Assembly (NCBI RefSeq): GCF_016924755.1
Contig: NZ_JAFFJX010000001.1
Location: 620,001-684,000 of the forward strand
Direction: 5' to 3'
Length of the DNA: 64,000 nucleotides
Source of the DNA: Longitalea arenae
Lineage (GTDB): Bacteria > Bacteroidota > Bacteroidia > Chitinophagales > Chitinophagaceae
The position numbers and the translations under genes were made by a program. Shown here in pieces: positions 24,700 through 41,509 of this stretch; positions within the stretch are counted from its first letter, which is position 1; each line of letters begins with the position of its first letter. The notes beneath the pieces are model-generated. The model saw nothing but the letters and a program-made list of their open reading frames with translations, was not told where the DNA came from and did not search any database.

Positions 24700-25773
24700 T
24701 TAATGCGCAGCCGGATTAATGAATTTCAGGATAAAATATACAAGGGCAGCAAATAAACCACTGACCGGAATGGTAAGGATCCATGCCCACAGCAGGTTGA
24801 TAGAAATGCCCCAACGCACTGCAGACAAGCGTTTTGTCATTCCGACACCCATAATGGAACCTGCGATGGTGTGGGTGGTGCTTACGGGAATCCCCAGGCC
24901 CTGGGAAACACCATATAAGGTTACTGCGCCGGCTGTTTCAGCGGCCACACCTTCGAGCGGTGTTACTTTCGTGATCTTGGTACCCATTGTTTTAACGATT
25001 CGCCAGCCACCCATCATGGTGCCCAGGGCTATACATAAATAGCAGGTAATGGGTATCCATTGCGGTACGTGGCCATAAGTGCTTTTTCCATTTGCATCTA
25101 CTTTTTCCACGATGAGGGCCCAATCGGGTATGGGCACTCCGTTTTTAACGCACCAGGCGCCAAATACCACCATGGAAGCGGTAATAATACCGATCACTTT
25201 TTGTGAATCGCTGCCACCATGCCCAAGGCTGAATGCCGCAGATGAAACCAGCTGAAAACGCCGGAACCATTTATCTGCATGGTAGGGATTGGCCTTGCGG
25301 CAAAGGTTTACAATGAGCACAGTTATCAGGAAGGCGATGAACATGCCGATAAAGGGCGCCAGTACAATAAATTTGATGGTATCAAAAATCACCTTCTGGT
25401 TAATCACATCGAAGCTGCCGGCATGGGCCACTGCAGCACCTGCAAAACCGCCGATGAGCGTATGCGATGAGCTCGATGGGATACCAAACCACCAGGTGAG
25501 CAGGTTCCAGCCAATAGCGGCAATAAGGCCCGCAAAGATCACATATAAATTAATGGAATCGCTGTGTACGGTTTTGGCAACTGTGTTGGCCACTTTCAGA
25601 TCGAAGATCCAGAAGGCTACAAAGTTGAAAACGGCTGCCCAAACAACCGCCTGAAAGGGGGTCAGCACTTTAGTTGAAACAACGGTAGCTATGGAGTTGG
25701 CAGCGTCATGAAAACCATTGATCAAATCGAAAGTCAGTCCGAGTACAATAATAATAACTAATAATGTAAACAT
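24700..25773 (-). CDS. Low-affinity inorganic phosphate transporter (Pit family)
   Basis: A 357-residue inner-membrane transporter of the PiT family, which imports metal-phosphate with protons or sodium. The two family repeats are visible: GFHDAANSIATVVSTKVL at residues 21-38 and its C-terminal counterpart LGIPVSTTHTIAGSIMGVG, with WGIPSSSSHTLIGGFAGAAV in the middle. About eight to ten hydrophobic helices can be counted. It lies 36 nt downstream of the DUF47 gene, the usual pit partner, and ends before a perfect 16-bp inverted repeat. It is at the left edge of the phosphate island. Confidence 0.94.
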   Translation of the reverse strand: MFTLLVIIIVLGLTFDLINGFHDAANSIATVVSTKVLTPFQAVVWAAVFNFVAFWIFDLKVANTVAKTVHSDSINLYVIFAGLIAAIGWNLLTWWFGIPSSSSHTLIGGFAGAAVAHAGSFDVINQKVIFDTIKFIVLAPFIGMFIAFLITVLIVNLCRKANPYHADKWFRRFQLVSSAAFSLGHGGSDSQKVIGIITASMVVFGAWCVKNGVPIPDWALIVEKVDANGKSTYGHVPQWIPITCYLCIALGTMMGGWRIVKTMGTKITKVTPLEGVAAETAGAVTLYGVSQGLGIPVSTTHTIAGSIMGVGMTKRLSAVRWGISINLLWAWILTIPVSGLFAALVYFILKFINPAAH

Positions 25774-25809
25774 TGCGGCAGCGGTTAGGTAAAAAACAGG
25801 TCCTGTCTG

Positions 25810-26457
25810 TTACGCGTATTTAATAATGATAGATTCGATCACGTTACCGGCATCTTCGCATTTATCGGTTACAATTTCCATAACCTGGTAAATTTCCCGC
25901 TTTTTGATAACCTCTTTTGCATCGGGTTCGGTCTCAAATAACCGGTCGATGCTTAGATCAAAAATATCGTCGGCCTGGTTTTCAATGCTGTTTACTTTCA
26001 CGAGGGCATCGGTGATCTGGCGCATATCGCGCATATCACGCAGCTGCAGTACCGCATTTTTAATTTGCTCGCAACCCTGGTCAATGAGATCGGCCATTTT
26101 TTGAATACCCTGGTCGTTGGGATTTACTTTATAGAAGTTGATCTTTTTGGCAGAAGCGAAAATGTAGTCGGCTATATCATCCAGGGCGCTTGCCAGGTAG
26201 TGGATGTCTTCGCGGTCGAAGGGTGTAATGAAATTTCTGCCGAGCTCGGTAAAGATCTTGTGTGTGTAGTCGTCGTTTACATGCTCCAGGTCCTCAATTT
26301 GGGCAATCAGTGCAGCCCTTTTATCGAAGTCCGGTTCTGTAACTACTTCCTTCATCACCTTACCCATTTTAGCCACAGTTTGGGCAACCTGTTCAAATAA
26401 GGAGTAGAATATCCTATCCTTCGGCATGAAAATCTTCATTATAGAGTTTAAGCCCAT
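25810..26457 (-). CDS. DUF47/PhoU-like phosphate transport regulator
   Basis: A 215-residue, fully helical protein of the DUF47 (TIGR00153) family, which resembles PhoU and is almost always encoded with a Pit transporter. Features are KDRIFYSLFEQVAQTV near the N-terminus, IEDLEHVNDDYTHKIFTEL near 50, FITPFDREDIHYLASALDDIAD near 74 and KCEDAGNVIESIIIKYA at the end. The first ATG is used; a second lies six codons in (MKIFMPKDRIF). A minus-strand TATTTTTG promoter box at 26481 to 26474 is very close upstream. It is the first gene of the two-gene pit operon. Confidence 0.93.
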   Translation of the reverse strand: MGLNSIMKIFMPKDRIFYSLFEQVAQTVAKMGKVMKEVVTEPDFDKRAALIAQIEDLEHVNDDYTHKIFTELGRNFITPFDREDIHYLASALDDIADYIFASAKKINFYKVNPNDQGIQKMADLIDQGCEQIKNAVLQLRDMRDMRQITDALVKVNSIENQADDIFDLSIDRLFETEPDAKEVIKKREIYQVMEIVTDKCEDAGNVIESIIIKYA

Positions 26458-26481: not shown

Positions 26482-26778
26482 GAACTAATACCATAGGATA
26501 AAAAAAAGGGCAGCTCGGTAATAATTACTTAACACAAAGATAATATTGGCCGCCAGAACTGATCCTGATTGTTTAAGGAATTGATTACCAAATGCTAACT
26601 AATCAATTGATTCCCTAATGGCTACAGTTAGTGACGTAAGGGTGCTTTATTTCTGATTTTCTTAATAAAAATATTATACCAATATTATCCTGTTTACCTT
26701 ATGCCGGTGGCCCTGGTTTTGAAGAAATATTCATAAAATAATAATTGCTTAATATTGCTCCCCCAAAAAACCGGTATA
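26482..26778. other. Divergent control region between DUF47-pit and the porin
   Basis: It contains three pentamers at an exact 11-bp period on the plus strand (TAATA 26519, TAACA 26530, TAATA 26541) that resemble the Pho-box ladder found further right. No -7 box lies 9 nt after the last unit, so I do not call a promoter here. The porin promoter was not identified. Confidence 0.4.
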
Positions 26779-28104
26779 ATGTCTTTTGCTTGTTTACAGT
26801 TATCTTCTGTTTCCCGTAGGCTTTTCATTCTGCTGTTTTTCCTTGCTGGTTCGGGTGTGTTGCAAGCCCAGTTCCTGACACAAATGATAGATACCAGTAC
26901 CAATGTTGGCAAGGGCATTTTACAGATGTACAAGAAATTCGATCGCATTTACTTTACCGGTTATATGCAGCCCCAGTTCCAGGTTGCCCAGGAAAAAGGC
27001 GTTGACAGCTGGAATGGAGGCGACTTTGCGCCAAAATCCAACAGCAGGTTCATGCTCAGGCGGGGCCGGGTGCGCCTGGATTATGTGCGAATGAATAGTA
27101 ATGATGAGATATCGCTCTACTTTGCGTTCCAGTTCGATGGCACTGAACGTGGCGTGGTTATCCGTGATTTTTGGGGGCGGGTATTTGAAAACAAGTGGCA
27201 TGTACTTAATCTCACGACTGGTATGTTTGCCCGGCCTTTTGGGTATGAAGTAAATTTGAGCTCCGGCGACCGCGAAACACCTGAGCGTGGCCGCATGTCG
27301 CAGATCCTGATGAGGAATGAACGTGACCTGGGCGCCATGATTTCATTTGAACCACGCCGCAAAGACCATCCTTTGCGCAACCTGAAAATAGATGCCGGCG
27401 TTTTCAATGGCCAGGGCCTTACTGCCAGCAGCGAATACGATTCGTATAAAGATTTTATAGCCCGCGCTGCCTGGCGGCCTTACCCGCTTACCAAAGAATT
27501 TTTTATTTCCGGCGGACTTTCTTATTTAAACGGCGGGCTCTTCCAAAACACAAAATATACCTACGAAATAGCCAATGGTAACAATGGTAAACACTTCCTG
27601 GTGGATTCGGCTGATGACAATATTGGCCGTAAATCGCCCCGGCAGTATTATGGGGCCGATATACAATTGAAGTGGAAGCAGAATAACGGCGGCTCTACCG
27701 AACTGCGGGCTGAGTATTGGCGGGGTACACAAACAGGTTCAGCCGGAACCAGCGAAACGCCAACGGCTTTATTGAACGAGCCTTATTATGTGCGGCAGTT
27801 TGATGGGGCATTTATTTATTTACTGCAGAATTTCACCAAACATCACCAGGTGGGTGTTAAATACGATTGGTATGATCCGAATACCGAAGTGGAGGGTAAA
27901 GAAATTGGTGAGGGAGGTAATAACTTAAATGCTACAGATATAAAATTTTCTACGGTCACTGTCGGCTATAATTATATCATCAATGAAAATGTGCGCCTGA
28001 TGTTATGGTACGATATCATCAAAAATGAATCGACTTCTGTCACTGATTACACAGGCGATAAAAAGGACAATATCTTCACGGCAAGGCTTCAATTCAAGTT
28101 TTAA
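26779..28104 (+). CDS. Phosphate-selective porin (OprO/OprP type)
   Basis: A 441-residue outer-membrane beta-barrel of the porin O/P family. The start at 26779 (MSFACLQLSS) gives a signal peptide ending near residue 31 (GSGVLQAQ). The frame opens earlier with a TTG at 26755, which is less likely. Family signs are FTGYMQPQFQVAQEKG, the SRFMLRRGRVRLDY segment near 90, many alternating aromatic strands, and the C-terminal FTARLQFKF ending in Phe. It is divergent from DUF47-pit and ahead of a TonB receptor with a Pho-box-like promoter, which supports a phosphate role. Ion selectivity cannot be read from the sequence. Confidence 0.85.
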   Translation: MSFACLQLSSVSRRLFILLFFLAGSGVLQAQFLTQMIDTSTNVGKGILQMYKKFDRIYFTGYMQPQFQVAQEKGVDSWNGGDFAPKSNSRFMLRRGRVRLDYVRMNSNDEISLYFAFQFDGTERGVVIRDFWGRVFENKWHVLNLTTGMFARPFGYEVNLSSGDRETPERGRMSQILMRNERDLGAMISFEPRRKDHPLRNLKIDAGVFNGQGLTASSEYDSYKDFIARAAWRPYPLTKEFFISGGLSYLNGGLFQNTKYTYEIANGNNGKHFLVDSADDNIGRKSPRQYYGADIQLKWKQNNGGSTELRAEYWRGTQTGSAGTSETPTALLNEPYYVRQFDGAFIYLLQNFTKHHQVGVKYDWYDPNTEVEGKEIGEGGNNLNATDIKFSTVTVGYNYIINENVRLMLWYDIIKNESTSVTDYTGDKKDNIFTARLQFKF

Positions 28105-28186: not shown

Positions 28187-28235
28187 TAATATTCGGTTAA
28201 CATTCGCGAAACCTTAGCGTAATGTTCCCTTAACA
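28187..28235 (+). promoter_or_regulatory. Upstream TAACA-ladder cluster
   Basis: Pentamers at an exact 11-bp period: TAATA 28187, TAACA 28198, AAACC 28209 (poor), TAATG 28220, TAACA 28231. No -7 box follows at the 9-nt distance. It may be an extra regulator-binding array upstream of the main ladder at 28271. Confidence 0.4.
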
Positions 28236-28270: not shown

Positions 28271-28325
28271 TAATAATTCCTTAACACAGGAGTAACATAG
28301 CGATAACACCCCCGGGATACTTTTG
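28271..28325 (+). promoter_or_regulatory. Pho-box-like promoter of the TonB receptor
   Basis: Four pentamers at an exact 11-bp period (TAATA 28271, TAACA 28282, TAACA 28293, TAACA 28304). They are followed by 9 nt and a -7 box TACTTTTG (28318-28325). The direct-repeat layout with 11-bp period is what PhoB/PhoP-type regulators bind in other phyla. Confidence 0.7.
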
Positions 28326-28346
28326 CGGCAAATAAAACTGTTTTTC

Positions 28347-31160
28347 GTGAGCAAAAAGTTCTTGTATACCCTGATAGCCCTGTTTGTAACAATCTCAACT
28401 TTTGCCCAAACCGCTACAACAACGGGAAAGATCTCCGGTAAAGTTGTTGACGCAGAAAATGGTACACCATTAGTAGGCGCTTCGGTTGTTCTGGCAGGTG
28501 ATAATAAAAAAGGTATATACACCGATGTGGAAGGCCGTTTCTTTGTAACGGTTCCAAGAAATAAAAAATATACACTTATTATAAGTAGCGTAGGATATGC
28601 CGATAAAGAGGTAAGTGATATTGAAGTAACCGGTGCCGACAATGCAACGGTAAACGTTTCTCTGGAAAGAAAGGGAAAACAGTTACAGAATGTAGAGGTA
28701 AAGGCCAGCATACGTAAAGAGAATCTTTCCTCCTTATATCTAACGCAAAAGAACAGCTCCTCCATTTCAGATGGGATCTCAGCGGAAGTGATAAAGAAAT
28801 CTCCAGACAGGAATACCGGTGAAGTGTTAAAACGCGTAAGCGGCGCTTCTGTACAGGATAACAAATTTGTGGTGATCCGTGGTTTGAACGAACGCTACAA
28901 CGTATCGATGCTTAATAATTCTGTACTTCCCAGTACAGAGGCCGATAAAAAAGCATTCTCTTTTGACATTATCCCTTCTTCAGTCGTAGATAACCTGGTA
29001 GTATATAAATCGCCTACGCCCGATTTACCTGGTGATTTTGCCGGTGGCGCCATTAAGGTGATCACCAAAGATTACCCCTCGCGTAAACTGAGTGAACTGT
29101 CATTGAATATCAGCTATAACTCATTAACTACCGGTAAGAATTTTTACAGGAGCTATCCTAAAGGCAAATATGATCAGCTGGGCTTTTTTGATGACAGCCG
29201 CCTGATGCCTGGTCCCTATTACCGTAACCGTTTTGGTTTTATCTCAAATCCCAGTGATTTCAAAAATGAGGTAACCAAGATGTTCCCGAATACTTATGGA
29301 TATGAAGCTGCTTACAGAAGCGCGCCTGCCATTAGCGCTTCTTACACCGGTGGTAACACGGCTGTATTAAAAAATAACAATAAACTCGGCTATATATATT
29401 CTATTGGTTACAGTAATGGCCGGGCAGTTTCTGAAAGAGAGCGCACTGACTATATTTTTGACGCAGATAAAAAATTACGGTACGATTACAACACCAATAA
29501 TTACGACGAGAAGAACAGCCTGACGGCGCTGCTGAACCTTACTTATTCTTATGGTAAAAGTAAAATATCATTAAAGAACCTGTTTAACAACAGCTTCGTA
29601 AAGAGCACCGGTCTTCGCAACGGACCCAGCTATGAAATTGATCCGGACGGTTTACCGTTCTATACAAGGGCTGCCAATAGTGAAGCTTCGGGAGCTGGTT
29701 TGGCAAATTCTGTTGCGGAAGGTTTACACAGGCTGGGCAAAGATTGGACGATCGACTGGAATGCTTCTTTTGCCTATACTTATAAGAACCAGCCCGATCA
29801 GCGTATTCTTTCCTTCCGTACCGATCAGGGAAATGAAAATGATTACTATTTAGTATTAAGTACTGAGAATTCACCTGAGATCAGGAATGCGGGGCGGGTG
29901 TATTCTTTCCTGGGAGAATATATTTATGGTGCTTCTGCCAATGCCACTAAACAATTTAACTGGTTAGGGCAAACGCAGAAACTGAAGTTTGGAACCATGA
30001 ATTATTATCGCGACAGAAGTGTAGATGTGTATGCCATGGGATATGCTGTACTGGATGCTAACCGGTTAGTGATCAACCAGGACAAAGAGACCAGCTTTAA
30101 TACCATTTTCAGCCCTGAAAATGTAGAGAACCTGAACCTCACCGTGGCCAATATTGAAAGTAACTCAACGGAGTATGAAGGAAATGCCACATTGAACGCT
30201 GGTTATGTAATGCTGGACAATAAATTCTCTGATAAGTTTAAATTGACCTGGGGCGCCAGAATTGAAAAATACCGCCAGGAGCTGTCTGCAAGGAACAAGC
30301 TAACGCAGGTATATGATAATACCGATGTATTACCTTCTTTGTTGTTCACCTATGCTTTAAATAATAAAACAAATATCCGTTTGGCAGGTTCCCAGTCTGT
30401 GAACAGACCAGAATTCAGAGAGCTGGCAGATTACGGTACCTACGATTATGATAACTACGTTGTGGTGCGTGGTAATCCCAACCTGGAAAGAAGCCTGAAT
30501 ACCAATGCCGATCTTCGGTACGAGTGGTTTCCTGCTGCAGGTGAGATCATGAGCGCCAGCGTATTTTATAAACACTTTGATAAACCTATCGAACAAACGA
30601 ACCAGGGGAATGATGTTCTATCATATGTAAATGCCGACCATGCTGTTACCTATGGTGCCGAAATTGAGATCCGTAAAAAGCTCGATTTCATTGGCAGCGG
30701 AATTTTTGAACAGCTTACTTTTTATACCAATGCAGCCTATATCAAAGGTTCGGTTCAATTCAACGGTCTTGATATCAGCAGCCCGATGCAGGGACAATCG
30801 CCTTACCTGGTGAACGGCGGTATAAATTATACAGCACCCAATGACGGTTTTTCTGTGAACTTCCTGTATAACAGGATCGGGCCCCGTTTGCGTTACCGCT
30901 CTCAGAATGGTGCAGCGCTCGACATTTATGAAAGGCCGAGAGATGTGCTTGACTTCCAGGTTAGCAAAAAATTAATGAACAATAAGCTGGAAGCAAAGCT
31001 TTCTGTAAGCGATATCCTGGCCCAGCCATTTGCCTGGTATTATAAATATGAAGTAAATCCTTCCAGCACTGGCTATAAGGCTTCTACCGATAAGATCATG
31101 AACAGTATTAAATATGGTACCACAGCTGTGTTATCGTTGCGCTACAACTTTGGCAAATAA
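28347..31160 (+). CDS. TonB-dependent outer-membrane receptor of the phosphate island
   Basis: A 937-residue TonB-dependent transporter. I choose the GTG at 28347 (SKKFLYTLIALFVT signal peptide), because the earlier in-frame TTG at 28323 lies inside the -7 box. Domains: signal peptide to about 26, carboxypeptidase-regulatory-like beta domain about 30-115 (GKISGKVVDAENGTPLVGAS), plug about 130-260 (GEVLKRVSGASVQDNKFVVI), and a beta-barrel ending in LSLRYNFGK. It lacks the SusC SusD-partner arrangement; instead a beta-helix lipoprotein follows. The Pho-box-like ladder implies induction by phosphate limitation. The substrate is inferred to be a phosphorus compound and is unproven. Confidence 0.88.
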   Translation: MSKKFLYTLIALFVTISTFAQTATTTGKISGKVVDAENGTPLVGASVVLAGDNKKGIYTDVEGRFFVTVPRNKKYTLIISSVGYADKEVSDIEVTGADNATVNVSLERKGKQLQNVEVKASIRKENLSSLYLTQKNSSSISDGISAEVIKKSPDRNTGEVLKRVSGASVQDNKFVVIRGLNERYNVSMLNNSVLPSTEADKKAFSFDIIPSSVVDNLVVYKSPTPDLPGDFAGGAIKVITKDYPSRKLSELSLNISYNSLTTGKNFYRSYPKGKYDQLGFFDDSRLMPGPYYRNRFGFISNPSDFKNEVTKMFPNTYGYEAAYRSAPAISASYTGGNTAVLKNNNKLGYIYSIGYSNGRAVSERERTDYIFDADKKLRYDYNTNNYDEKNSLTALLNLTYSYGKSKISLKNLFNNSFVKSTGLRNGPSYEIDPDGLPFYTRAANSEASGAGLANSVAEGLHRLGKDWTIDWNASFAYTYKNQPDQRILSFRTDQGNENDYYLVLSTENSPEIRNAGRVYSFLGEYIYGASANATKQFNWLGQTQKLKFGTMNYYRDRSVDVYAMGYAVLDANRLVINQDKETSFNTIFSPENVENLNLTVANIESNSTEYEGNATLNAGYVMLDNKFSDKFKLTWGARIEKYRQELSARNKLTQVYDNTDVLPSLLFTYALNNKTNIRLAGSQSVNRPEFRELADYGTYDYDNYVVVRGNPNLERSLNTNADLRYEWFPAAGEIMSASVFYKHFDKPIEQTNQGNDVLSYVNADHAVTYGAEIEIRKKLDFIGSGIFEQLTFYTNAAYIKGSVQFNGLDISSPMQGQSPYLVNGGINYTAPNDGFSVNFLYNRIGPRLRYRSQNGAALDIYERPRDVLDFQVSKKLMNNKLEAKLSVSDILAQPFAWYYKYEVNPSSTGYKASTDKIMNSIKYGTTAVLSLRYNFGK

Positions 31161-31168
31161 TGATTTGG

Positions 31169-31212
31169 TAAACTGCGGTTAACTATTCGGTAACACAGCG
31201 CGAATACTTTCG
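31169..31212 (+). promoter_or_regulatory. Pho-box-like promoter of the beta-helix lipoprotein
   Basis: TAAAC 31169, TAACT 31180 and TAACA 31191 at an exact 11-bp period, then 9 nt, then the -7-like box TACTTTCG (31205-31212). The geometry is the same as at 28271-28325. It gives a leader of about 110 nt to the ATG at 31329. Confidence 0.65.
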
Positions 31213-31328
31213 TCAAACATTTCAAAATAACTAATGAATCAATCATTACCAGTTCTATAAAAATCAGTAGCTGGTGATTGGTGGGATTCCTTCGACCCTA
31301 GTCAAAAATTTTAAAAAAAAGTCTTCAG

Positions 31329-32708
31329 ATGAAAAAACTAGCAACAATTTACTTGTTGGGGATTGTTATGCTCGGCGCCTGCAGCAAGAGCGATGACAAG
31401 GATGACCCAGGTGGTGGCGGTGGTGGAAACAACACTGGTACAGAAATACGCGGTACCATTACTTCTGACCTGCATTGGACAAAAGATAAAACATACCGTT
31501 TACGTGGTTATGTATACGTAGCAAGCGGTGTTACTCTCACTATTGATCCTGGAACTAAAATAGTTTCAAATAAAGACTCTGCAGCCGTTCTGGTAGTTTA
31601 CCGCGGCGCAAAGATCATGGCCCAGGGTACTGCTGCTGAACCGATCGTATTTACTTCAAATGAAGCTAATCCGCAGCCGGGTGACTTCGGTGGTATCGTA
31701 TTGGTAGGCCAGGCCACCGGTAACGGTAACCACTCTGTCATTGAAGGTGGTGTTGATGCTGCTTTCAGCGCATTCGGTGGTTCTAATGACGCTGATAACT
31801 CTGGCGTATTGAAATACGTTCGTATTGAATATGCTGGTAAAGCGGTTAACCCCGGTGACGAAGTGAATGGTTTGTCTTTATACGGCGTAGGTTCTGGTAC
31901 TACGATCGATTATGTACAGATCGTACGCGGTTTGGATGACGCCTTTGAGTTCTTTGGCGGAACCGTAAACTGCAAACACCTCATCGCTTACAACTGCGCA
32001 GACGATGATTTTGATATGGACGACGGATACCGCGGTAAAATTCAATTCGCGATCTCTGTTAAAGATCCCAAATTCACTGATGCCAAAGGTACCAGCGGCG
32101 ACGTATCTAACAACTTCGAGGTTGATAACGTAAACCCAAGCAATGGTTTCTTACTGTCAAGAGCGCCCATTACCTTCCCGGTGATGTCGAATTTCACTTT
32201 GATTGGCCCCAATGGCGCAACCGGTACTTCTGCTGATTTTGGCTGGAGCATGCGCTGGAGAAGAGGCAGCAAGTTCATCCTTGCCAACTCAATCGCCCTG
32301 GGTGGTCAAAAAGGCCTCCGTTTACAGGAAGATTCAACAATTGCATACTTTGCAAGAGGTGCAAGTGCTTTTTATAACAGCTTTATCAGTTCTGTTGCCA
32401 GCAACCCTGTTGATGTAGAGCTTGGTAAAACCATACCTGGTGTTACATACGATAACGCTTCTATAACCGACCGGATCAAAACAAACTACAAATCAACCGT
32501 GTTGGCAACAGCAGGTGATATGAAGCTCACTGATCCTTTCAACAATACAGCACCCAATCTGAAACCTGCTACCGGTTCTGCCGCTTTATCAGGTGCACTG
32601 TTTGACTTTGGTACTTTAGGCGATGCCTGGTTTGAAAAAGTTAGTTACAGAGGTGCTTTAGATGGCACTATTGACTGGACTGCCAACTGGGCTGTTTGGA
32701 ATAAGTAA
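31329..32708 (+). CDS. Surface lipoprotein with right-handed beta-helix
   Basis: A 459-residue lipoprotein. The lipobox LGAC places the lipidated Cys at residue 18; the following SKSDDKDD acidic stretch resembles the Bacteroidota lipoprotein export signal for the cell surface. A Gly-rich linker follows, then repeated beta-helix rungs (VASGVTLTIDPGTKIVSNKD, GTAAEPIVFTSN, FGGIVLVGQA, GVLKYVRIEYAG, GLDDAFEFFGG). It is downstream of the TonB receptor, has its own Pho-box-like promoter, and ends at a terminator. By position it may be the receptor's surface partner. Whether it binds or cleaves a phosphorus-containing ligand cannot be told; no catalytic motif is recognised. Confidence 0.82.
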   Translation: MKKLATIYLLGIVMLGACSKSDDKDDPGGGGGGNNTGTEIRGTITSDLHWTKDKTYRLRGYVYVASGVTLTIDPGTKIVSNKDSAAVLVVYRGAKIMAQGTAAEPIVFTSNEANPQPGDFGGIVLVGQATGNGNHSVIEGGVDAAFSAFGGSNDADNSGVLKYVRIEYAGKAVNPGDEVNGLSLYGVGSGTTIDYVQIVRGLDDAFEFFGGTVNCKHLIAYNCADDDFDMDDGYRGKIQFAISVKDPKFTDAKGTSGDVSNNFEVDNVNPSNGFLLSRAPITFPVMSNFTLIGPNGATGTSADFGWSMRWRRGSKFILANSIALGGQKGLRLQEDSTIAYFARGASAFYNSFISSVASNPVDVELGKTIPGVTYDNASITDRIKTNYKSTVLATAGDMKLTDPFNNTAPNLKPATGSAALSGALFDFGTLGDAWFEKVSYRGALDGTIDWTANWAVWNK

Positions 32709-32734
32709 TTTAATTATTTTGATAGATTTTGAAG

Positions 32735-32764
32735 AACTGCCTTGTTTACTCAGGGCAGTTTTTC
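32735..32764 (+). terminator. Terminator after the beta-helix lipoprotein
   Basis: AACTGCC (32735-32741) pairs with GGCAGTT (32754-32760), extended by TTG/CAG pairs inside, followed by TTTTCTTTTT. A second, perfectly palindromic GC-rich element AGGCCGGGCCCGGCCT lies at 32771-32786, against the stop codon of the convergent gene. Confidence 0.8.
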
Positions 32765-32786
32765 TTTTTGAGGCCGGGCCCGGCCT

Positions 32787-33989
32787 TTATTTATTCTTTT
32801 GAGGCGTGTATACGTACGTTACTTCATAGGGGGCCTGCTTTAGCTCAGGCAGTAATTGTCCAACCATCAGATCTTCTTTTTGCGGACTCGGCTCGCAAAT
32901 GGTATATTTCTGTCCATTGTAGATGATCGGTTTGCCATAAGGCTTATTGAACTGTACCGCTATTGTTACGTGTTTTGGGTAAGAGAGCACGATCATCGGC
33001 AGATCGTAGATCTCCTTTACGAGACAATAAAACAAGGCTACACGGTCCTCACAATCGCTTTGATCGTAGAGCAGCGTTTGTTCAGGCGATAATCTTTTTT
33101 CGCCCCCATAGATCTCCGTATCAGGTTCAAACAGGAATGCATACCGGGTAAACCGCAAGAGGTAATCAACGCCATTTTTAACATTCATCCGCTTTACTTT
33201 TTTCTTCAGCAAAGGGATCAGACTGTAATAGGTTTCTTTGCTCAGGGGAATATTCAGATACAGCGCATAATCTACCACCGGGTAATTGGTGAACAGCGTT
33301 TGGATCTGCGTATTGAGTTTGATCTTGAAAGAGTATTCCAGATCATTATAGCTGTAGCGGAGGTCCTTTTCTTTGTAGTCAGATGGTCTGAATTCGGGCA
33401 GGCGGGTGATCTTATACGAAAAGTTGCTCCCCTTTTCGGGAACGGGCAGATCGATCACTGCAAACCGGTTCTTTTGAAAGTCAATATTATTGCCATAATC
33501 ATGATAGTTCAAACAAACATATTGTTTGCCATCGACTGTACGGGTAGGAATATTGTAGATATTCTCATCACAACGGATATAGAACAACAGATAATTGCCA
33601 GAAGTAGCCAGCATGGCATCATAGCCACACCGGGTTAAGAAATACCATTTATACAAGGTATAGCGGTGGTAATCGTTTGCTTTAGGACTTATTAGTTGGG
33701 CCGTTTTCCTGATGAGCTGGTAAAATAACCAGTCATCGGGCCTGAGTTTGTTTTTGTAGGCCAGCAGCGCGTTAATTACAGGATCGTAATCAACACTTTC
33801 AAGGCTTTGGTAAAAGCTTGTAATGGCTGCCGCTGTTGACAGATCGGATGATTGAGGAATGGTGCTTTTATCAAAATCAAAGCCGATAGGTTCGCCGCAA
33901 AAATCAAATTGAACGGCCTGCCCCAGGCCGGCGATGGGGCCGGTGGTGAAGGATACCAGGAAGATCAGTATGGTCGCAAATCTTTTCAC
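32787..33989 (-). CDS. Transglutaminase-like superfamily protein, exported
   Basis: A 400-residue protein read from the GTG at 33989, which gives a signal peptide (KRFATILIFLVSFTTGPIAG). A TTG 13 codons upstream is the alternative start. The C-terminal part contains DQSDCEDRVALFYCLVKE near residue 315 and YPKHVTIAVQF about 30 residues later. This is the Cys...His arrangement of transglutaminase-like cysteine enzymes, so a peptidase or amidase role in the envelope is possible. The N-terminal 250 residues are not recognised. It lies inside the phosphate island between the lipoprotein and the orphan Pho-type promoter. No ladder was found in its own orientation. Confidence 0.65.
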   Translation of the reverse strand: MKRFATILIFLVSFTTGPIAGLGQAVQFDFCGEPIGFDFDKSTIPQSSDLSTAAAITSFYQSLESVDYDPVINALLAYKNKLRPDDWLFYQLIRKTAQLISPKANDYHRYTLYKWYFLTRCGYDAMLATSGNYLLFYIRCDENIYNIPTRTVDGKQYVCLNYHDYGNNIDFQKNRFAVIDLPVPEKGSNFSYKITRLPEFRPSDYKEKDLRYSYNDLEYSFKIKLNTQIQTLFTNYPVVDYALYLNIPLSKETYYSLIPLLKKKVKRMNVKNGVDYLLRFTRYAFLFEPDTEIYGGEKRLSPEQTLLYDQSDCEDRVALFYCLVKEIYDLPMIVLSYPKHVTIAVQFNKPYGKPIIYNGQKYTICEPSPQKEDLMVGQLLPELKQAPYEVTYVYTPQKNK

Positions 33990-34087
33990 GGGATCAATTT
34001 CCACTATTAATATACGAAAACTTAACAATCAGGTAATATTAAATCTCAAATGCGAATTGTATGCCTGGGTTTTGTTTTACCATTTGG

Positions 34088-34131
34088 TAACACTGCTGTA
34101 ACAGCTGGCTAATAGTGTTGGGGTAACTTGC
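34088..34131 (+). promoter_or_regulatory. Orphan Pho-box-like promoter
   Basis: TAACA 34088, TAACA 34099 and TAATA 34110 at an exact 11-bp period, then 9 nt, then TAACTTGC (34124-34131) as a weak -7 box. The spacing is identical to the ladders of the TonB receptor and lipoprotein genes. It points away from the transglutaminase-like gene and into a stretch with no recognised gene. Confidence 0.6.
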
Positions 34132-34158
34132 CGGGGATTCCATTTTTCAATATCGTTC

Positions 34159-34260
34159 ATGCCATTAACAGATGCTGTTATGGCAAGCCACGCCGTGCCA
34201 GCGGAACGGACCGCTTTTGTCAGGGCTTATGTTAGTAAAATATTGAATGAATATTTATAA
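34159..34260 (+). CDS. Possible 33-residue small protein under Pho-type control
   Basis: The ATG at 34159, about 25 nt after the expected transcription start, opens a 33-codon frame ending TAA at 34258-34260. The peptide starts MPLTDAVMASHAVPAE and ends SKILNEYL. I do not recognise it and it has no membrane segment. It could be a real small protein, the remnant of a lost gene, or a chance ORF in a small RNA. Support is positional only. Confidence 0.35.
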   Translation: MPLTDAVMASHAVPAERTAFVRAYVSKILNEYL

Positions 34261-34493
34261 AAGAATTAATAGGTATGATAGAAATAATTAAATGTAATTG
34301 GGTATTTTTTGGATAAATGTAAGAAGAAAGTAAAATTCTCTAAAAAATTATGAATTTTTACGTGGCCGGAAGTATCTTTAAGCATCTTATCCTCGCCAGA
34401 AAGCGATTTCAGATCATCCTGCCTGAAATAATTATCAATAAAATACTAAGATTCTCTATAAAGTGAGAGTTTTATTTCTCTCATGTGACTGAC

Positions 34494-34527
34494 GCCGTTC
34501 GATTTCTATCGTGACGGCTTTTTTTTT
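34494..34527 (+). terminator. Terminator of the orphan Pho-type transcript
   Basis: GCCGT (34494-34498) pairs with ACGGC (34514-34518), extended inside by CGAT/ATCG, and is followed by nine T residues (34519-34527). Its orientation matches a plus-strand transcript, and the only plus-strand promoter candidate upstream is at 34088-34131. Confidence 0.75.
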
Positions 34528-34545
34528 AACCCACCTGTTCGCATG

Positions 34546-34579
34546 CAAAAAGTGCCACCCTTAATGAAAGAAGTGGCAC
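34546..34579 (-). terminator. Terminator of the glycosyltransferase operon
   Basis: On the minus strand GTGCCAC and GTGGCAC (34573-34579 and 34552-34558) form a stem followed by TTTTTGC. It ends the PlcP-like/glycosyltransferase operon 24 nt after the stop codon. Confidence 0.8.
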
Positions 34580-34602
34580 AAGAAACGGAAGAAAGATTTT
34601 GA

Positions 34603-35637
34603 CTAATTGAAGATCAGATCGGGATAAGGTATATCCAACTGAGATCTCAGATCAGTGCAGCGGTACATCAGTATATTGATTATGGCTTCCGTTGAATACC
34701 GGTATTGTACCGAGGGCGTTGCGGGATCGTTCACCCAGTTATTGAAGGTGCCGGTAAAATCATCATCCAGTTTGTCGAGGGTAGTAATGCCTATTTTTTT
34801 AAGCGCAGCGGCATTACATTGTTGTTCGTACTGCCCCTGAATTGGAATGGCGATCATTTTTTTCTTCAGGTACAAAGCCTCGGCGGGGGTCTCAAAACCG
34901 GCGCCGCACACGATACCAAAACAGCTGATCAGGCTGCGGTTGAAATCTTTTGCATCCACAGGGCGGAAATTCATGTGCTCAACGGTATAAGGCTTTACTG
35001 CCTGGCGGGAGAATACTTCGAACCGGTGATCTTTGAAAGGCTTTAACAGATCGATCAATTGTTTATCGCAGTAGGAAGGGAGGTACACGGTTATATGTCC
35101 TTTATTGCTCACTTCGGCTTTTAGTATCTCTTCTTTAATGACCGGAGAGAAGATAAAGTCGTCGTAGCTTTCAAAATGCAGCCCGATATAATTGGTGGCC
35201 CGGGCATAATTCTGCAGGATCCATTCACCGGCTTTGCTGGGCTTTTCAGGCCTTGGTGTTTTATTAGAAACAAAGCTGGCCTGGTGACCAAAATTTACTG
35301 AGGGCACTTTCTTACGGGCACAGGCCAGGGAGGTAATGCATTCAAAATCGTTGATCACCAGGTCGTATTTTTCAACCGGCAGGTCCCGCACTTCTTTCAT
35401 GACCCGTAAAGGGGCTATCCGGCGAACGATCTTCCAGTAATCGAGGCTGCCGTCGCAGGTATAAAAAAGGCTTAGGCCTTTACTTCTGTATTTAATCGGG
35501 GCGTTCAGCGGTAAGGTGCTGTTGGCGCCACTTAAGAAAATATCAACGGTGCCGAACTTCTGTAAATAAGGTAAGAGTTCCATGGCACGACTAATATGTC
35601 CATTGCCGGTAGCCTGTATGGCGTAAAATATCTTCAT
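34603..35637 (-). CDS. MurG/GT28-like glycosyltransferase, candidate glycolipid synthase
   Basis: A 344-residue GT-B fold glycosyltransferase. The N-terminal motif ATGNGHISRAMEL resembles the GxGGH loop of MurG and MGDG synthases. The C-terminal donor site appears as CGAGFETPAEALYLKKK with IPIQGQYEQQCNA. No signal peptide is seen. It lies 47 nt downstream of the PlcP-like phosphoesterase in one operon with a Pho-box-like promoter. In phosphate-starved bacteria, PlcP-type phospholipases and glycosyltransferases together swap phospholipids for glycolipids. I infer that this enzyme glycosylates the released diacylglycerol. Sugar donor and product are unknown. Confidence 0.75.
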   Translation of the reverse strand: MKIFYAIQATGNGHISRAMELLPYLQKFGTVDIFLSGANSTLPLNAPIKYRSKGLSLFYTCDGSLDYWKIVRRIAPLRVMKEVRDLPVEKYDLVINDFECITSLACARKKVPSVNFGHQASFVSNKTPRPEKPSKAGEWILQNYARATNYIGLHFESYDDFIFSPVIKEEILKAEVSNKGHITVYLPSYCDKQLIDLLKPFKDHRFEVFSRQAVKPYTVEHMNFRPVDAKDFNRSLISCFGIVCGAGFETPAEALYLKKKMIAIPIQGQYEQQCNAAALKKIGITTLDKLDDDFTGTFNNWVNDPATPSVQYRYSTEAIINILMYRCTDLRSQLDIPYPDLIFN

Positions 35638-35684
35638 GTTTTATTGCTCTTTTCCACCGTGTATGCGCTTCGATGGTTATAGAT

Positions 35685-36515
35685 TTATATTGCTAATGAA
35701 TTAATATAAAAACTGATCTCGTCTGTTAGCACATTTACTTTTGCCGGGATATCGATCGCCGTTTGAGGGAAATCCTTTTCGTTATATTCGAAGATCTTCC
35801 ATTCATTGTGCTGGTATTCGAGGGCGGTCAAATGCTCGACCCAGTCGCCTGAGTTAAGATAGGTAACCTTGCCTTTTTCGGTTTCGATCACTCTTTTCTG
35901 GGGCTGGTGGATATGACCGCAGATCACATAATCGTATTTCTTTTCAATGGCCAGCTCGGCTGCAATATTTTCAAAGTCATCGATCTTAGCCATTTTGTTT
36001 ACGCCGGCCATTACCTTTTTTGAGATCGACAGTTTTTCACGGCCAAATGCTTTCAGTACAAAGTTCACAAGGCGGTTGAACAGGATCAGGGCGCCATAAC
36101 CGTTGCTGCCCAGCTTGGCCAGCACTTTGGCGCCGCCTTTGGTGGTGTTGTCAAATACATCACCATGAAATATCCAGTGCATTTTATTGTCTATCTCGAG
36201 CACCAGTTTATCGGTAAGGGTTAAATGGCTTAACTGGAAATCGCTGTAGCGCCGCAGTAATTCATCATGATTTCCGGTAATATAAAAAACGCGGGTGCCC
36301 CTCATGATCAGGTTTAGCACCTCTTTGATCACTGCCATATGTGAAGCCGGGAAATAACGTTTGGAGAACTGCCACCCATCAATGATGTCGCCGTTGAGGA
36401 TAAGAATATTCGGCAGGATACTTTTCAGGTATGCAACCAGCTCTTTTGCACGACATCCGTATGTACCGAGGTGTACATCAGATATAACTACTACGTCTAC
36501 TGCGCGTTTTTCCAT
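35685..36515 (-). CDS. PlcP-like metallophosphoesterase (LpxH-related)
   Basis: A 276-residue calcineurin-like phosphoesterase. All five metal motifs are present: DVHLG near residue 14, GDIIDGW near 41, GNHDE near 83, HGDVFD near 117 and GHIH near 210. It shares SDVHLGTYGCRAKEL and YLNSGDWVEHLTALE with the enzymes usually annotated UDP-2,3-diacylglucosamine diphosphatase, a group that includes the phospholipase-C-like PlcP of rhizobia. The start is the ATG at 36515 (MEKRAVDVV); an upstream TTG six codons earlier is less likely. It is preceded by the longest Pho-box ladder in the window and followed by a glycosyltransferase. A role in phospholipid turnover under phosphate limitation is inferred; lipid A synthesis is the alternative. 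Confidence 0.8.
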   Translation of the reverse strand: MEKRAVDVVVISDVHLGTYGCRAKELVAYLKSILPNILILNGDIIDGWQFSKRYFPASHMAVIKEVLNLIMRGTRVFYITGNHDELLRRYSDFQLSHLTLTDKLVLEIDNKMHWIFHGDVFDNTTKGGAKVLAKLGSNGYGALILFNRLVNFVLKAFGREKLSISKKVMAGVNKMAKIDDFENIAAELAIEKKYDYVICGHIHQPQKRVIETEKGKVTYLNSGDWVEHLTALEYQHNEWKIFEYNEKDFPQTAIDIPAKVNVLTDEISFYINSLAI

Positions 36516-36541
36516 TGAGTTTGGGTTTATCAAAATTCACA

Positions 36542-36607
36542 CATCTATATGACCTCAGTGTTATAGCATTATTAAGCCGCCGTTAGGCTTGTGTAAAGGA
36601 ATTGTTA
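36542..36607 (-). promoter_or_regulatory. Pho-box-like promoter of the PlcP-like operon
   Basis: Read on the minus strand there are five pentamers at an exact 11-bp period: TAACA (36607-36603), TTACA (36596-36592), TAACG (36585-36581), TAATA (36574-36570) and TAACA (36563-36559). Then come 9 nt and TATAGATG (36549-36542) in the -7 position. It is the longest ladder in the window. Confidence 0.7.
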
Positions 36608-36660
36608 CCGGTTGCAACCCCGCAGGAAATTCCGGGCTAAGGATAGACGTAATCATTTGT

Positions 36661-36704
36661 TCACACTGTCGTAAGAATGCGGTAATATCATCGCTGTATC
36701 TTAG
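36661..36704 (+). promoter_or_regulatory. Pho-box-like promoter of the DUF5690 gene
   Basis: TCACA 36661, TAAGA 36672 and TAATA 36683 at an exact 11-bp period (plus TAATC at 36650), then 9 nt, then TATCTTAG (36697-36704). It is divergent from the PlcP-like promoter. The leader to the likely start codon is about 165 nt. Confidence 0.6.
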
Positions 36705-36875
36705 TGTCCGTTTTATTGCTGTGTGTTATACATAAATAACAATCGTAGCAGTTTCTTAATGTTGACCGGCGGAGCTTTTTTAAGTTTCGCCCTTTTTTTG
36801 CCCGAAATGCATTCAGGGTAAACGGAGACGGGCATTCAGCGTTAGGCGTTACCCCTTTATTTCCTTACTTTACGA

Positions 36876-38210
36876 TTGAATCGTTTTCATCGCCATTATT
36901 CAAAACTGCTCCGTTTGCCAACAAAAACGACCGTTGCCGCCCGTTTTACAACAAAACAGCTCACTGTTGCATTATATACAGCAGCAGTAGCATTCTTAAC
37001 GTACGCATGCATTTTTGCCTACCGCAAAGCCTTTACGGTAGCCACTTTTGACGGATTGGCCTTCTGGGGAATAAAATATCAAACCTTACTTATCATTAGC
37101 CAGGGGCTGGGTTATATGGCCAGCAAATTTTACGGTATTAAATTCATTGCTGAGCTTAAACGGCTGGGCCGTTGGAAAACGAGTGCTGCGCTCATTGGCA
37201 TAGCCTGGCTTTGTTTGCTGCTTTTTGCATTGTCGCCGGCACCCTGGGGAATGCTGTTCCTGTTTGGGAACGGCTTCATGTTGGGCTTTATGTGGGGAAT
37301 TATTTTCAGTTATGCCGAAGGGCGGCGTGCAACCGATTTTATAGGCGCTGCCATGGCCATCAGTTTTGTATTTGCCGGGGGCTTCAGCCGGTCGGTAGCC
37401 GTGTGGTTGCGCGATAGCTGGCAGCTGCCGGAGCAATGGCTGGGTTTTGCCACGGGCCTGGTGTTTGCCCTGCCGCTGGTCGTTTTTATGTACCTGTTAG
37501 AACGCGTACCGCCGCCAGATGCCCAGGATATCCAGGAAAGAAGCATCCGCCTGCCCATGACAAGGCATGACCGCAAAAACTTTTTACGGCTGTTTGGCGG
37601 CGGTGTGGTGGCGGTAGTGATCACCTATCTGTTCCTGAGCATCATGCGCGATATACGCGACAATTTTATGGCGAATATGTGGAATGAACTGGGTTATGGT
37701 CAAAAGCCGGCCATTTTCACCAAAACCGAAACCATTACCTCTGTAATAGTGCTGGTGGTAATGAGCCTGCTGGTGATTGTGAGAAAAAATATAAAGGCGT
37801 TCCGTTTAATTCACTGGGTGATCGTTGCCGGATTCTTAATTGCCGGTATTGCCTCTGCGCTTTTTTTAGCTGGTACCGTTTCCGGCGCTTTATGGATGCA
37901 ACTGGCAGGGCTTGGCTTGTATATGGGATATATTCCGTTCAACTGCATTTATTTTGAACGATTGATCGCCACGTTTAAGATAGCAGGTAATGTTGGGTTT
38001 CTTATTTATATAGCCGATGCCTGGGGATACCTGGGAAGCATGTCGGTAATGTTGACCAAAGAGCTGGCTGGTTTACAGCTGACCTGGACGGAGTTCTACC
38101 CAACTACTGTTGTTATATTTTCTGGTGTAGGTGTGCTGGCTACCCTGTTTTCCCTGGTATATTTTAACCGGAAATACAGCGAAAAGGAAAAATTGAATGG
38201 TGGATCCTAA
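36876..38210 (+). CDS. DUF5690 family MFS-like membrane protein
   Basis: A 444-residue protein with about 12 hydrophobic helices and the overall layout of a major facilitator transporter. It matches the Bacteroidota DUF5690 family as I remember it (YACIFAYRKAFTVATFDG near the N-terminus, GWKYQ-like GIKYQTLLIISQGLGYMASK, RDIRDNFMANMWNELGY in the central loop). The start is uncertain: no ATG is near; TTG at 36876 is used, and a TTG 13 codons later is possible. The Pho-box-like promoter upstream suggests phosphate-limited expression, so uptake of an organic phosphorus compound is a reasonable guess, not a result. Confidence 0.72.
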   Translation: MNRFHRHYSKLLRLPTKTTVAARFTTKQLTVALYTAAVAFLTYACIFAYRKAFTVATFDGLAFWGIKYQTLLIISQGLGYMASKFYGIKFIAELKRLGRWKTSAALIGIAWLCLLLFALSPAPWGMLFLFGNGFMLGFMWGIIFSYAEGRRATDFIGAAMAISFVFAGGFSRSVAVWLRDSWQLPEQWLGFATGLVFALPLVVFMYLLERVPPPDAQDIQERSIRLPMTRHDRKNFLRLFGGGVVAVVITYLFLSIMRDIRDNFMANMWNELGYGQKPAIFTKTETITSVIVLVVMSLLVIVRKNIKAFRLIHWVIVAGFLIAGIASALFLAGTVSGALWMQLAGLGLYMGYIPFNCIYFERLIATFKIAGNVGFLIYIADAWGYLGSMSVMLTKELAGLQLTWTEFYPTTVVIFSGVGVLATLFSLVYFNRKYSEKEKLNGGS

Positions 38211-39645: not shown

Positions 39646-40695
39646 TCAGTCGCGCTTTGACTCAACCGTAAAGCCGATGGTAGTGCCCACATCGGGGGTG
39701 CTGCGCACGTGAATACTTTGTCCATGCGCCTCAATAATATGTTTACAGATGGCCAGGCCGAGGCCGGTTCCGCCCTTATCGCGGCTGCGGGCGGTGTCGG
39801 TACGGTAAAAGCGTTCAAAAATGCGGGGCAGGTGTTCTTCCTCTATGCCGATACCATCGTCGCTGATCTCCACCAGCACATGCTGATCGTCGGTATCGTA
39901 AATGCTGGCTGTTATATGGCCATGGTGTTTACCGTATTTGGTGGCATTTTCAACAAGGTTGATCAATACCTGTTTGATCTTTTCTTTATCGGCAAATACG
40001 GTGATCGGCGCTTCACAGCCTTTTTTGATGAGCGTGCGAATATTCTTTGCCTGGGTCTTGATAGAAAGGGAGTCGTATATTTCGCGAATAAGGTCCTGGA
40101 TCACAAAGTTTTGTTTGGCCAGTAATTGTTCGCCTCTTTCGAGCCGGGATATTTCATCCAGGTCATTCATGAGGTTCACCAGGCGGTCGACGTTTTTAGC
40201 CGTGTTTTCCAGAAATCTTTTACGAATGGCTTCTTCTTCCATGGCGCCACCGAGCAGGGTATCTACATAACCCTGGATGGCAAATATGGGTGTTTTGAAC
40301 TCGTGGGCCAGGTTCTGCAAAAATTCTTTGCGGTAGGCTTCGTTCTGACGTAATAATTCTATTTCCCGCATGCGGCGTTCACCCCATTCTTCCACATCGG
40401 CCCGCACTTCATCGATGCTTTTTTGCGGCAGGATGTATTTGAAATACATCTCTTCTTTTTTGGTCGCTTTGGTTTGATAAATAAGCTTATAGATGAGTTT
40501 GATCTTGCGATAGATGAACCTTTCCATGGTGACCAGTATCAACCAGTAACCGCCGGCAAAGATTACAATGAGCGACGCAAGCCCGATCTGCCAGTTAAGG
40601 GTGAGAATAAGTATGCCAATGGCTATAGGAATAGCTAATATACCTGCTGTGAATGCAGCTAACTGCCGGGGTGTAAGGTTTTTTGCTGAAGACAT
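39646..40695 (-). CDS. phoR: PhoR-like sensor histidine kinase
   Basis: A 349-residue membrane histidine kinase. Two transmembrane helices lie near residues 11-34 and 37-56 with almost no periplasmic loop, as in PhoR kinases that sense through the Pst/PhoU complex. The dimerisation domain has the H-box LAHEFKTPIFAIQG with His131. ATP-binding motifs are NLVENATKYG (N box), EISDDGIGIEEE (G1), FERFYR (F box) and GGTGLGLAICKHI (G2). It is 121 nt downstream of the PhoB-like regulator in the same orientation. Naming as PhoR rests on topology, partner and the adjacent phosphate island. Confidence 0.85.
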   Translation of the reverse strand: MSSAKNLTPRQLAAFTAGILAIPIAIGILILTLNWQIGLASLIVIFAGGYWLILVTMERFIYRKIKLIYKLIYQTKATKKEEMYFKYILPQKSIDEVRADVEEWGERRMREIELLRQNEAYRKEFLQNLAHEFKTPIFAIQGYVDTLLGGAMEEEAIRKRFLENTAKNVDRLVNLMNDLDEISRLERGEQLLAKQNFVIQDLIREIYDSLSIKTQAKNIRTLIKKGCEAPITVFADKEKIKQVLINLVENATKYGKHHGHITASIYDTDDQHVLVEISDDGIGIEEEHLPRIFERFYRTDTARSRDKGGTGLGLAICKHIIEAHGQSIHVRSTPDVGTTIGFTVESKRD

Positions 40696-41494: not shown

Positions 41495-41509
41495 TAACAA
41501 AAATTTTGG

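Follow-up and report, generated by a model that had tools for sequence, protein, structure and literature searches.

The Pho box of Escherichia coli sits about 10 bp before the -10 element, and promoters of the Bacteroidota have a -7 element. Here we describe a candidate Pho box for the Bacteroidota, in a 64,000-nt stretch of DNA (the window) from the 7.28 Mb genome of Longitalea arenae (contig NZ_JAFFJX010000001.1, positions 620,001 to 684,000), which belongs to a genus group of the Chitinophagaceae type. Five promoters in the window carry a ladder of TAACA-like units at an 11-bp period, which ends 9 nt before a TAnnTTTG-like box. The ladders lie in a phosphate cluster that spans about 24.7-41.6 kb of the window, and it is very probable that they represent the Bacteroidota Pho box.

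Such 11-bp repeats for PhoB or PhoP are already known in kind, and the unit is close to that of Bacillus. The PhoP box of Bacillus subtilis is made of TT(A/T/C)ACA direct repeats with a spacer of 5±2 bp (PMC3036859). Its unit is nearly identical to ours, its period is 11 bp if the spacer is 5, and it also serves phosphate starvation genes. But B. subtilis belongs to another phylum and has another sigma factor, and the ladders have three to six units, a strict 11-bp period, and a fixed distance of 9 nt to the TAnnTTTG-like box. In E. coli, the Pho box is two 11-nt direct repeats with a CTGTCAT core (PMC4415409). Those units are also 11 nt long, head to tail, and beside the promoter core, but the unit is different, the box is defined as two units, and the promoter is a sigma-70 promoter. 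The cyanobacterial Pho box is PyTTAAPyPy(T/A), and cyanophage promoters are bound by the host's PhoB (PMC10976474). The TTAAC-like unit and the use by phages resemble what we report here, while the unit as a whole and the promoter differ, and the phage ladders of Bacteroidota are known from sequence alone.

Within the same phylum as the window, the PhoB of Bacteroides fragilis bound a 512-bp fragment of the pst promoter and was needed for expression of pstC; the main text of that study gives no consensus site (PMC3547664). In a study of marine bacteria, with isolates that include Flavobacteria, genes of plcP clusters are marked if they have a predicted upstream PhoB site; the available portion gives no consensus and does not specify which Bacteroidetes genes are marked (PMC4796936). 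Flavobacterium johnsoniae has a phoBR cluster of similar make-up to that of the window, with strongly induced genes. When phosphate is depleted there, strong induction is reported for a TonB-dependent receptor (TBDT), the lipoprotein FII, PlcP, and a PhoX-like protein (PMC8115612). There is no work on promoter motifs in the main text of that study. We equate these proteins with genes of L. arenae provisionally, by family and gene order rather than by direct alignment. In limited literature searches, with most subscription papers outside our reach, we found no Bacteroidota consensus, no fixed 9-nt link, no RNA or phage uses of such a box, and no phosphate-related small RNA from this phylum.

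Five ladders with a fixed geometry

The five ladders were first picked out by eye, in a preliminary description of the window. To score them, we used a pattern set a priori (three TAACA units at 11 bp, 9 nt, and TAnnTTTG, with a maximum of 21) on both strands of the window. Only the five promoters and their 11-bp register shifts had a score of at least 15. With up to 3 mismatches to the strict pattern, the window had 3 matches (28282; 34077 and 34088), which belong to two of the five promoters, and 100 dinucleotide shuffles had none.

We also built a profile (R1) and a matching position weight matrix (together, model A2) from plcP promoters outside the genus. Matches to PlcP, distant paralogues included, were present in 56 of 59 genomes, and we obtained the loci for 30. 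The model uses 11 of these 30 promoters. We left out the 10 from its own genus, 7 without a significant ladder, an irregular one (L021), and one that MAFFT had slipped by one unit (L015). All five ladders scored at least 16.8 with this out-of-genus matrix (Table 1), and R1 recovered four of them. In Markov-3 sequence of the size of both genome strands, there was 1 match at 17 or above and none at 20. These results bear out the places of the five ladders and the 11-bp period. The number of units had been underestimated: four of the five ladders hold one more than was described. Aligned with relatives, every ladder has at least four units at 11 bp, with the box 9 nt past the last one.

The box is a TAnnTTTG-like -7 element, with TTTG in TACTTTTG and GAATTTTG and near forms in TACTTTCG, TAACTTGC, and TATCTTAG. 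The 9-nt distance stood as described, except that the box given for plcP was TATAGATG. This sequence straddles the last unit and the spacer. The ladder has a sixth unit, TCATA, and the true box, GAATTTTG, lies one 11-bp step further on and is conserved in all 10 copies from the genus.

To examine the geometry, we scored 23 of the 30 plcP upstream regions (3 from the genus and 20 from others) for periods of 7-15 and gaps of 5-14. The mean score was highest (15.65) at a period of 11 with a gap of 9. Other gaps at period 11 gave 13.6-14.6, and other periods gave 11.7-13.3. Also, 23 of the 30 promoters have a ladder and box that are significant against shuffles (p ≤ 0.015; at most 2 of 200 dinucleotide shuffles). 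In the MAFFT alignment, four plcP promoters are out of register by exactly one unit of 11 bp. Lastly, among 59 matches to the strict motif (defined below) that were non-redundant by upstream sequence, 56% have a further TAAYA-like unit at exactly -11, and just 0-14% have one at other offsets from -4 to -40.

Within the genus, the gap of 9 nt is preserved. The box of the TBDT ladder is kept in all nine loci that have a receptor at that place. The lipoprotein ladder is found at 7 of 9 loci that contain the gene (among the 8 best matches listed), the ladder of small RNA 1 with a TAnCTTGC-type box at 7 of 10 loci, counting the window (matrix scores of 10.4-19.5), and the ladder of small RNA 2 at 10 of 10, including L061 and L063. 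A distal array lies upstream of the TBDT promoter and scores 12.1-13.7 in L056, L058, L059, and L061.

That the pattern arose by chance and was picked by eye from an AT-rich cluster is hardly credible. The five promoters were indeed chosen by eye, and a reversed model gives some meaningless matrix matches above 17. But the ladders were recovered by a model from outside the genus, the shuffles lack them, and they are conserved, with the same period and gap across genera. AT-rich composition alone is rejected by the reversed model.

Table 1. Ladders, genes, and candidate RNAs of the phosphate cluster (positions in the window), with one RNA from elsewhere in the genome
Feature	Positions	Strand	Units and box, family, or other attributes	Matrix score
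PiT transporter and DUF47	24700-26457			
Half-ladder about 200 nt upstream of OprP	26519-26547	+	three units, no box at 9 nt; R1 13.7 bits	-3.5
Phosphate-type porin (OprP)	26755-28104			
Distal array upstream of TBDT promoter	28187-28235	+	degenerate 11-bp units, out of phase with the proximal ladder	10.0
TBDT ladder	28271-28325	+	TAATA, TAACA, TAACA, TAACA, 9 nt, TACTTTTG (28318-28325)	34.7
TBDT	28323-31160	+	Pfam Plug, TonB_dep_Rec_b-barrel, CarbopepD_reg_2	
Lipoprotein ladder	31158-31212	+	TAATG, TAAAC, TAACT, TAACA, 9 nt, TACTTTCG	21.6
Lipoprotein, taken as like F. johnsoniae FII	31329-32708	+	FII name from gene order and PMC8115612	
Small RNA 1 ladder	34077-34131	+	TTACC, TAACA, TAACA, TAATA, 9 nt, TAACTTGC; no protein gene downstream	16.8
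Candidate small RNA 1	34133-34220	+	invariant GATTCCATTTTTC, TAACAG-AUG-CUGUUA hairpin, then terminator region	
Glycosyltransferase adjoining plcP, Agt-like by context	34603-35637	-	Pfam Glyco_trans_1_3	
PlcP-like metallophosphoesterase	35685-36515	-	Pfam Metallophos; PlcP name from context, PMC8115612, and PMC4796936	
plcP-agt ladder	36531-36607	-	TAACA, TTACA, TAACG, TAATA, TAACA, TCATA, 9 nt, GAATTTTG (36538-36531)	30.1
Small RNA 2 ladder	36650-36704	+	TAATC, TCACA, TAAGA, TAATA, 9 nt, TATCTTAG	19.8
Candidate small RNA 2	36707-36799	+	93 nt, 2 nt past the ladder's box; terminator hairpin and T run	
DUF5690 membrane-type protein	36876-38210	+	Pfam DUF5690; beyond small RNA 2	
PhoR-like histidine kinase	39646-40695	-	TIGR02966, 221.7 bits (below cut-off of 334.2)	
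PhoB-like response regulator, putative reader of the ladder	40817-41500	-	TIGR02154, 237.1 bits (below cut-off of 296.2)	
Half-ladder between phoB and orf739	41545-41574	+	three units, no box at 9 nt; R1 14.8 bits	2.0
Candidate third RNA	G000:C22:919651-919775 (L041/L265)		about 60 nt; ladder with TACATTTG upstream; terminator z of -4.06	22.7

Genes and other sites in the cluster

The first TTG of the TBDT's open reading frame (ORF) falls within the box, so the true start of the protein is further inside. The lipoprotein has no match in Pfam or NCBIfam. It is 38% identical, over 296 aligned positions, to a lipoprotein from F. cellulosilyticum that likewise has a ladder. PlcP and the adjacent glycosyltransferase are a known pair for lipid remodeling during phosphate shortage (PMC4796936).

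Four promoters in the window had been described as lacking the ladder. This was correct for the type IX secretion system gene, DUF47, and the second TonB receptor, none of which has a matrix match of 8 or more. phoB has no full ladder with a box, but does have a half-ladder of three units, which is possibly an autoregulatory site; L056 and L062 have similar sites. We did not count this half-ladder or the one near OprP, both of which have no box at 9 nt, as promoters.

There are a few other ladder-like sites. On the minus strand at 7598, the window has a run of TTACC repeats at 11-bp spacing (matrix score of 13.5) that is probably of low complexity. Between the lipoprotein and the next gene, L056 (9361, minus strand), L057 (6168, plus strand), and L062 (9795, minus strand) have extra ladders with the box TATCTTGC. 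The one in L056 is followed by about 100 nt that run up to a terminator-like hairpin and might be another small RNA.

Ladders elsewhere in the genome

To find other ladders in the genome of L. arenae, we scored 150 of 2,699 first-look candidates with R1 and kept those with E ≤ 10. There were 24 matches (best E-value of 1.7e-4), and a column-reversed profile (R3) gave 10 (best of 0.204). Eleven of the 24 have matrix scores of at least 17. These include the ladders of TBDT, plcP, small RNA 2, and the C22 RNA (Table 1). The others precede a SusC gene with SusD and a permease after it (30.9), a PAP2 gene upstream of genes for an LPG-synthase-like and a PMT-type protein (23.4), a PhoX-like phosphatase (20.3), a metallopeptidase-like protein (20.3), a metallophosphoesterase of the MetallophosN/C type (18.5), the locus L046 (18.2), and a second PAP2 gene with a PMT-type gene (17.1). 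The lipoprotein ladder is not among the 24.

Ladders across the phylum and beyond

To look more broadly, we searched 41 genomes from the phylum (E ≤ 0.05). R1 had 46 matches in 22 genomes, and R3 had 3 in 3. We inspected 28 of the 46 matches and compared 25 of the downstream proteins to Pfam, after dropping 3 whose ORF covers the site. Eight have a CarboxypepD_reg-type domain (6 with Plug), and 2 are Na/Pi cotransporters. A PstS-like protein, a DUF47 protein, a metallophosphoesterase, and a porin were found once each, and the rest are unrelated or have no clear assignment. Similarly, we inspected 22 of 50 matches in six named genomes and sent 10 proteins to Pfam. The proteins downstream include a PstS-like one in F. 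frigoris, DUF47 in Arcticibacter, and a PlcP homolog (39% identity) in Dyadobacter soli. In F. cellulosilyticum, there are ladders at the lipoprotein and at a porin that is about 5 kb away. A choice-of-anchor-I protein downstream of a match in F. frigoris may correspond to the phosphate-induced lipoprotein of F. johnsoniae, which has InterPro entries of the beta-propeller type (PMC8115612).

We then used the strict motif TAACA-N6-TAACA-N6-TAACA-N9-TAnnTTTG to search a genome collection, which yielded 109 stretches, of which 80 were listed. By their titles, 76 of the 80 are from Bacteroidota, Ignavibacteria, or Chlorobi (we take Stygiobacter and Melioribacter to be Ignavibacteria). The other four are titled Methanophagales, Clostridia, Bacillota, and Pyrinomonadaceae. 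Of these stretches, 75 have a downstream ORF, and most of these ORFs encode TonB receptors or phosphate transport proteins: 38 are of the CarboxypepD_reg type (35 with Plug), 8 are PHO4, 7 are Porin_O_P, 6 are Na/Pi cotransporters, 5 are PstS-like periplasmic binding proteins, 2 are DUF47, and one is a glycosyltransferase. Clustering of the 75 proteins gives 58 groups at 90% identity, 32 at 50%, and 16 at 25%, and the largest has 38 members. As a control, we considered 70 ORFs that are at least 2.5 kb away in the same loci. Of the 82 families in these ORFs, 25 were listed. Among the listed families that occur at least twice are PHO4 (2) and Metallophos (2), but no TonB, porin, Na/Pi, PstS, or DUF47 family.

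In one Bacillota metagenome-assembled genome (L137; JAAYLA010000107.1), a strict ladder precedes a protein that clusters with Na/Pi-cotransporter-like proteins. Either this contig is misbinned or the box is shared across phyla.

Since TonB-type receptors account for about half of the strict matches with a downstream ORF (38/75), the ladder might be a feature of DNA shape, such as A-tracts, that marks strong promoters of TonB and transporter genes without any specific regulator. We consider this very improbable: the units are specific in sequence and direction (46 matches in the phylum versus 3 for the reversed profile), periods of 10 and 12 are at background, and the promoters of PiT, Na/Pi, PstS-like, DUF47, plcP, and small RNA genes all share the ladder.

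Ladders upstream of candidate small RNAs

In the preliminary description, the genes downstream of the ladders were all assigned to phosphate or phospholipid metabolism. This holds for just three of the five, because the ladders at 34088 and 36661 precede conserved non-coding sequences, which are candidate small RNAs.

For the ladder at 34088, a coding gene right after it was rejected, as there is no ORF. Instead, the conserved sequence of small RNA 1 comes 4 nt past the box. Over 7 members of the genus, 35 of its first 52 columns are invariant, and there is a 6-bp hairpin. Single-base indels across relatives break any short reading frame. The terminator region changes quickly among relatives: the copy in L062 has a z score of -4.38, other relatives have hairpins, and the window copy is weak (z of 0.09). 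A model of the first 52 nt has a strong match (72 bits or higher) in 7 of 9 near-complete genomes from the genus. Outside the genus, matches are only weak, in 17 genomes from other genera. Of 20 weak loci listed (17 from other genera and 3 from the genus itself), 18 were scored (all but the truncated L192 and L205), and a ladder was absent from every one.

The neighboring non-coding region at 34440-34512 (plus strand), beside small RNA 1, is almost invariant over 8 genomes of the genus and ends in a terminator. It has its own promoter-like sequence, TATCTTTAA, with no clear ladder, and no Rfam match at the gathering score.

In all 10 genomes from the genus, small RNA 2 is conserved at 99-100% identity over 91-93 nt, and its fold has a z score of -4.83. 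DUF5690 begins 76 nt beyond it. We rejected DUF5690 as the direct target of the ladder at 36661: the near-invariant, RNA-like stretch of 93 nt intervenes, and both ladder and RNA persist in L063, which has no match to DUF5690, and in L061, which has a short piece of it. In L064, from a sister genus, 67 nt from the 3' end of small RNA 2 are found beside plcP with 87% identity (10267-10332, plus strand). There is no ladder upstream of this copy, so the Pho control of small RNA 2 may be specific to the genus.

A third candidate RNA, at C22, is in 10 of 10 genomes of the genus; its ladder has matrix scores of at least 21.9 in five of them and 2.4-8.6 in the other five. Its core, CATATGGCAAGCAATCGTT, is multicopy and is found in 97 of 147 Chitinophagaceae-type genomes. 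The element, CATATGGCAAGCAATCGTT(A)GAG with a terminator hairpin after it, has up to eight exact copies per genome, with some in tandem clusters; the reversed pattern had no matches in the rows listed. None of the 30 copies of the core that we examined in other genera has a ladder. For the most part, the element resembles a 3'-end or small-RNA element, with one genus-specific copy that has its own Pho ladder. None of the three candidate RNAs matches an Rfam family at the gathering score, nor is there a credible weak match. We predict that the ladder promoters produce these RNAs.

Ladders in phages

In viral contigs (IMG/VR; L252-L263), we found the strict pattern 12 times, never inside an ORF of 120 amino acids or more. 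The 12 contigs fall into about five groups by sequence, so they do not count as 12 independent cases. By a looser count without a shuffle control, three of the contigs (L252, L255, and L262) have three ladders each, with TAnnTTTG either 9 nt past the last clear unit or another 11 bp on. The ORFs downstream of the phage ladders are small and have no assigned function. Some of the contigs encode a terminase, a phosphoadenosine phosphosulfate reductase, or a DNA polymerase, which marks them as phages. Bacteroidota hosts are likely, because one contig's terminase is 53% identical to those of Nonlabens phages. One contig has relatives among phages of Flavobacteriia.

We see about even chances that this is one phylum-wide box with three jobs. 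First, it would drive phosphate genes, from the Chitinophagaceae to Alistipes, Dyadobacter, Flavobacterium, and Ignavibacteria. Second, it would drive small RNAs, through the two ladders in the window and a third that furnished one of the copies of a multicopy RNA element with a Pho promoter. Third, it would let phage promoters read the phosphate state of the host, with some phages putting two or three promoters under ladders.

Does PhoB read the ladder?

OmpR-type regulators commonly bind tandem repeats, and five of the ten genomes from the genus encode a paralog that is 41-42% identical to PhoB (at the E-value cut used). Another OmpR-family regulator could therefore be the reader of the ladder, sharing phosphate genes with PhoB, whose role would be indirect. 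This seems improbable, since the targets look like a phosphate regulon in several classes, phoB is in the same cluster, and direct binding to a pst promoter is reported for the PhoB of B. fragilis (PMC3547664).

The reading of the ladder as a Pho box bound by PhoB agrees with most of what we found. The ladders are 11-bp tandem direct repeats in a fixed place beside the promoter core, and they are upstream of phosphate-scavenging genes across the genome, though non-phosphate matches also occur. A PhoB/PhoR pair is present (PhoR was checked in the window and its genus loci), and orthologs of PhoB are found in 56 of 59 relatives, including 52 of 52 near-complete ones. The scans did not return matches at a chance rate that are unrelated to phosphate genes: the genes reached by matches from DNA alone are largely of the phosphate type, and the matches outnumber those of the reversed-model and Markov controls. 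With the corrected details, the preliminary interpretation is supported.

Several observations weigh against this reading. In the window, R1 misses the ladder at 31158-31212. The PhoB protein is below both curated NCBIfam cut-offs (TIGR02154, Table 1; and NF053854, 222.5 bits instead of 270), so we call it PhoB-like, yet these are its two best families. No significant ladder was found at 7 of the 30 plcP promoters (L011, L018, L020, L024, L025, L027, and L029), from genomes that have PhoB, and there is none at the PstS-like genes L078 and L079. Most E-values in the genome of L. arenae are weak (best of 1.7e-4, with 0.0102 for PhoX and 1.14 for PAP2), and some matches precede genes without a known phosphate link, such as DnaB, a sigma factor of the extracytoplasmic function type, and a thiamine pyrophosphate enzyme (matrix scores of 7.4, 5.3, and -3.7). 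On the reversed matrix, two of the 10 matches for R3 score 17 or more (20.9 and 23.2), versus 11 of 24 for the real profile, which implies that the Markov null is too kind. Across the phylum, one of the 3 matches for R3 coincides in place with a forward match, and there are forward matches before a glutamate-type dehydrogenase and a Crp-like protein, neither of which has a known link to phosphate. The phylum is rich in TonB receptors, which may raise their share of the strict matches (38/75). An AT-rich stretch from a Nonlabens phage (L264; 24,861 of 35,652 bases) has two matrix matches (20.0 and 18.5) that are not ladders. Finally, OprP and PhoR are not induced in F. johnsoniae (PMC8115612).

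Our model takes as its basis the observed sequence pattern, its geometry and conservation, its association with genes and RNAs, and the controls. Phosphorylated PhoB would bind head to tail, with one protomer per 11-bp unit and three to six units abreast. The core of each unit would be TNA(C/T)A, with (G/T)TAACA(T/A)(T/A) as the best form. Because a constant 9 nt separates the end of the array from the -7 element (TAnnTTTG-like), the last two units of the array would cover the usual place of the -33 contact. PhoB would then recruit the primary sigma factor of Bacteroidota, with the array standing in for that contact, and activate transcription. Such a mechanism would follow the established logic of Pho boxes (PMC4415409), with a unit like that of Bacillus (PMC3036859) and the -7 element of Bacteroidota. 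In this order of events, scarcity of phosphate would switch on uptake, phosphatases, lipid remodeling, and small RNAs (two in the window and a third elsewhere). The published induction of counterparts in F. johnsoniae (PMC8115612) suggests, by analogy, that the genes with ladders respond to phosphate.

In soil, sea, and gut, Bacteroidota are among the major degraders, and their phosphate response has been measured, with no defined operator in the literature that we searched. The motif is so specific that the phosphate regulon should be predictable from sequence across the phylum. It also points to small RNAs within the phosphate regulon, and it offers a direct way to test if phages of this phylum sense the phosphate of the host.

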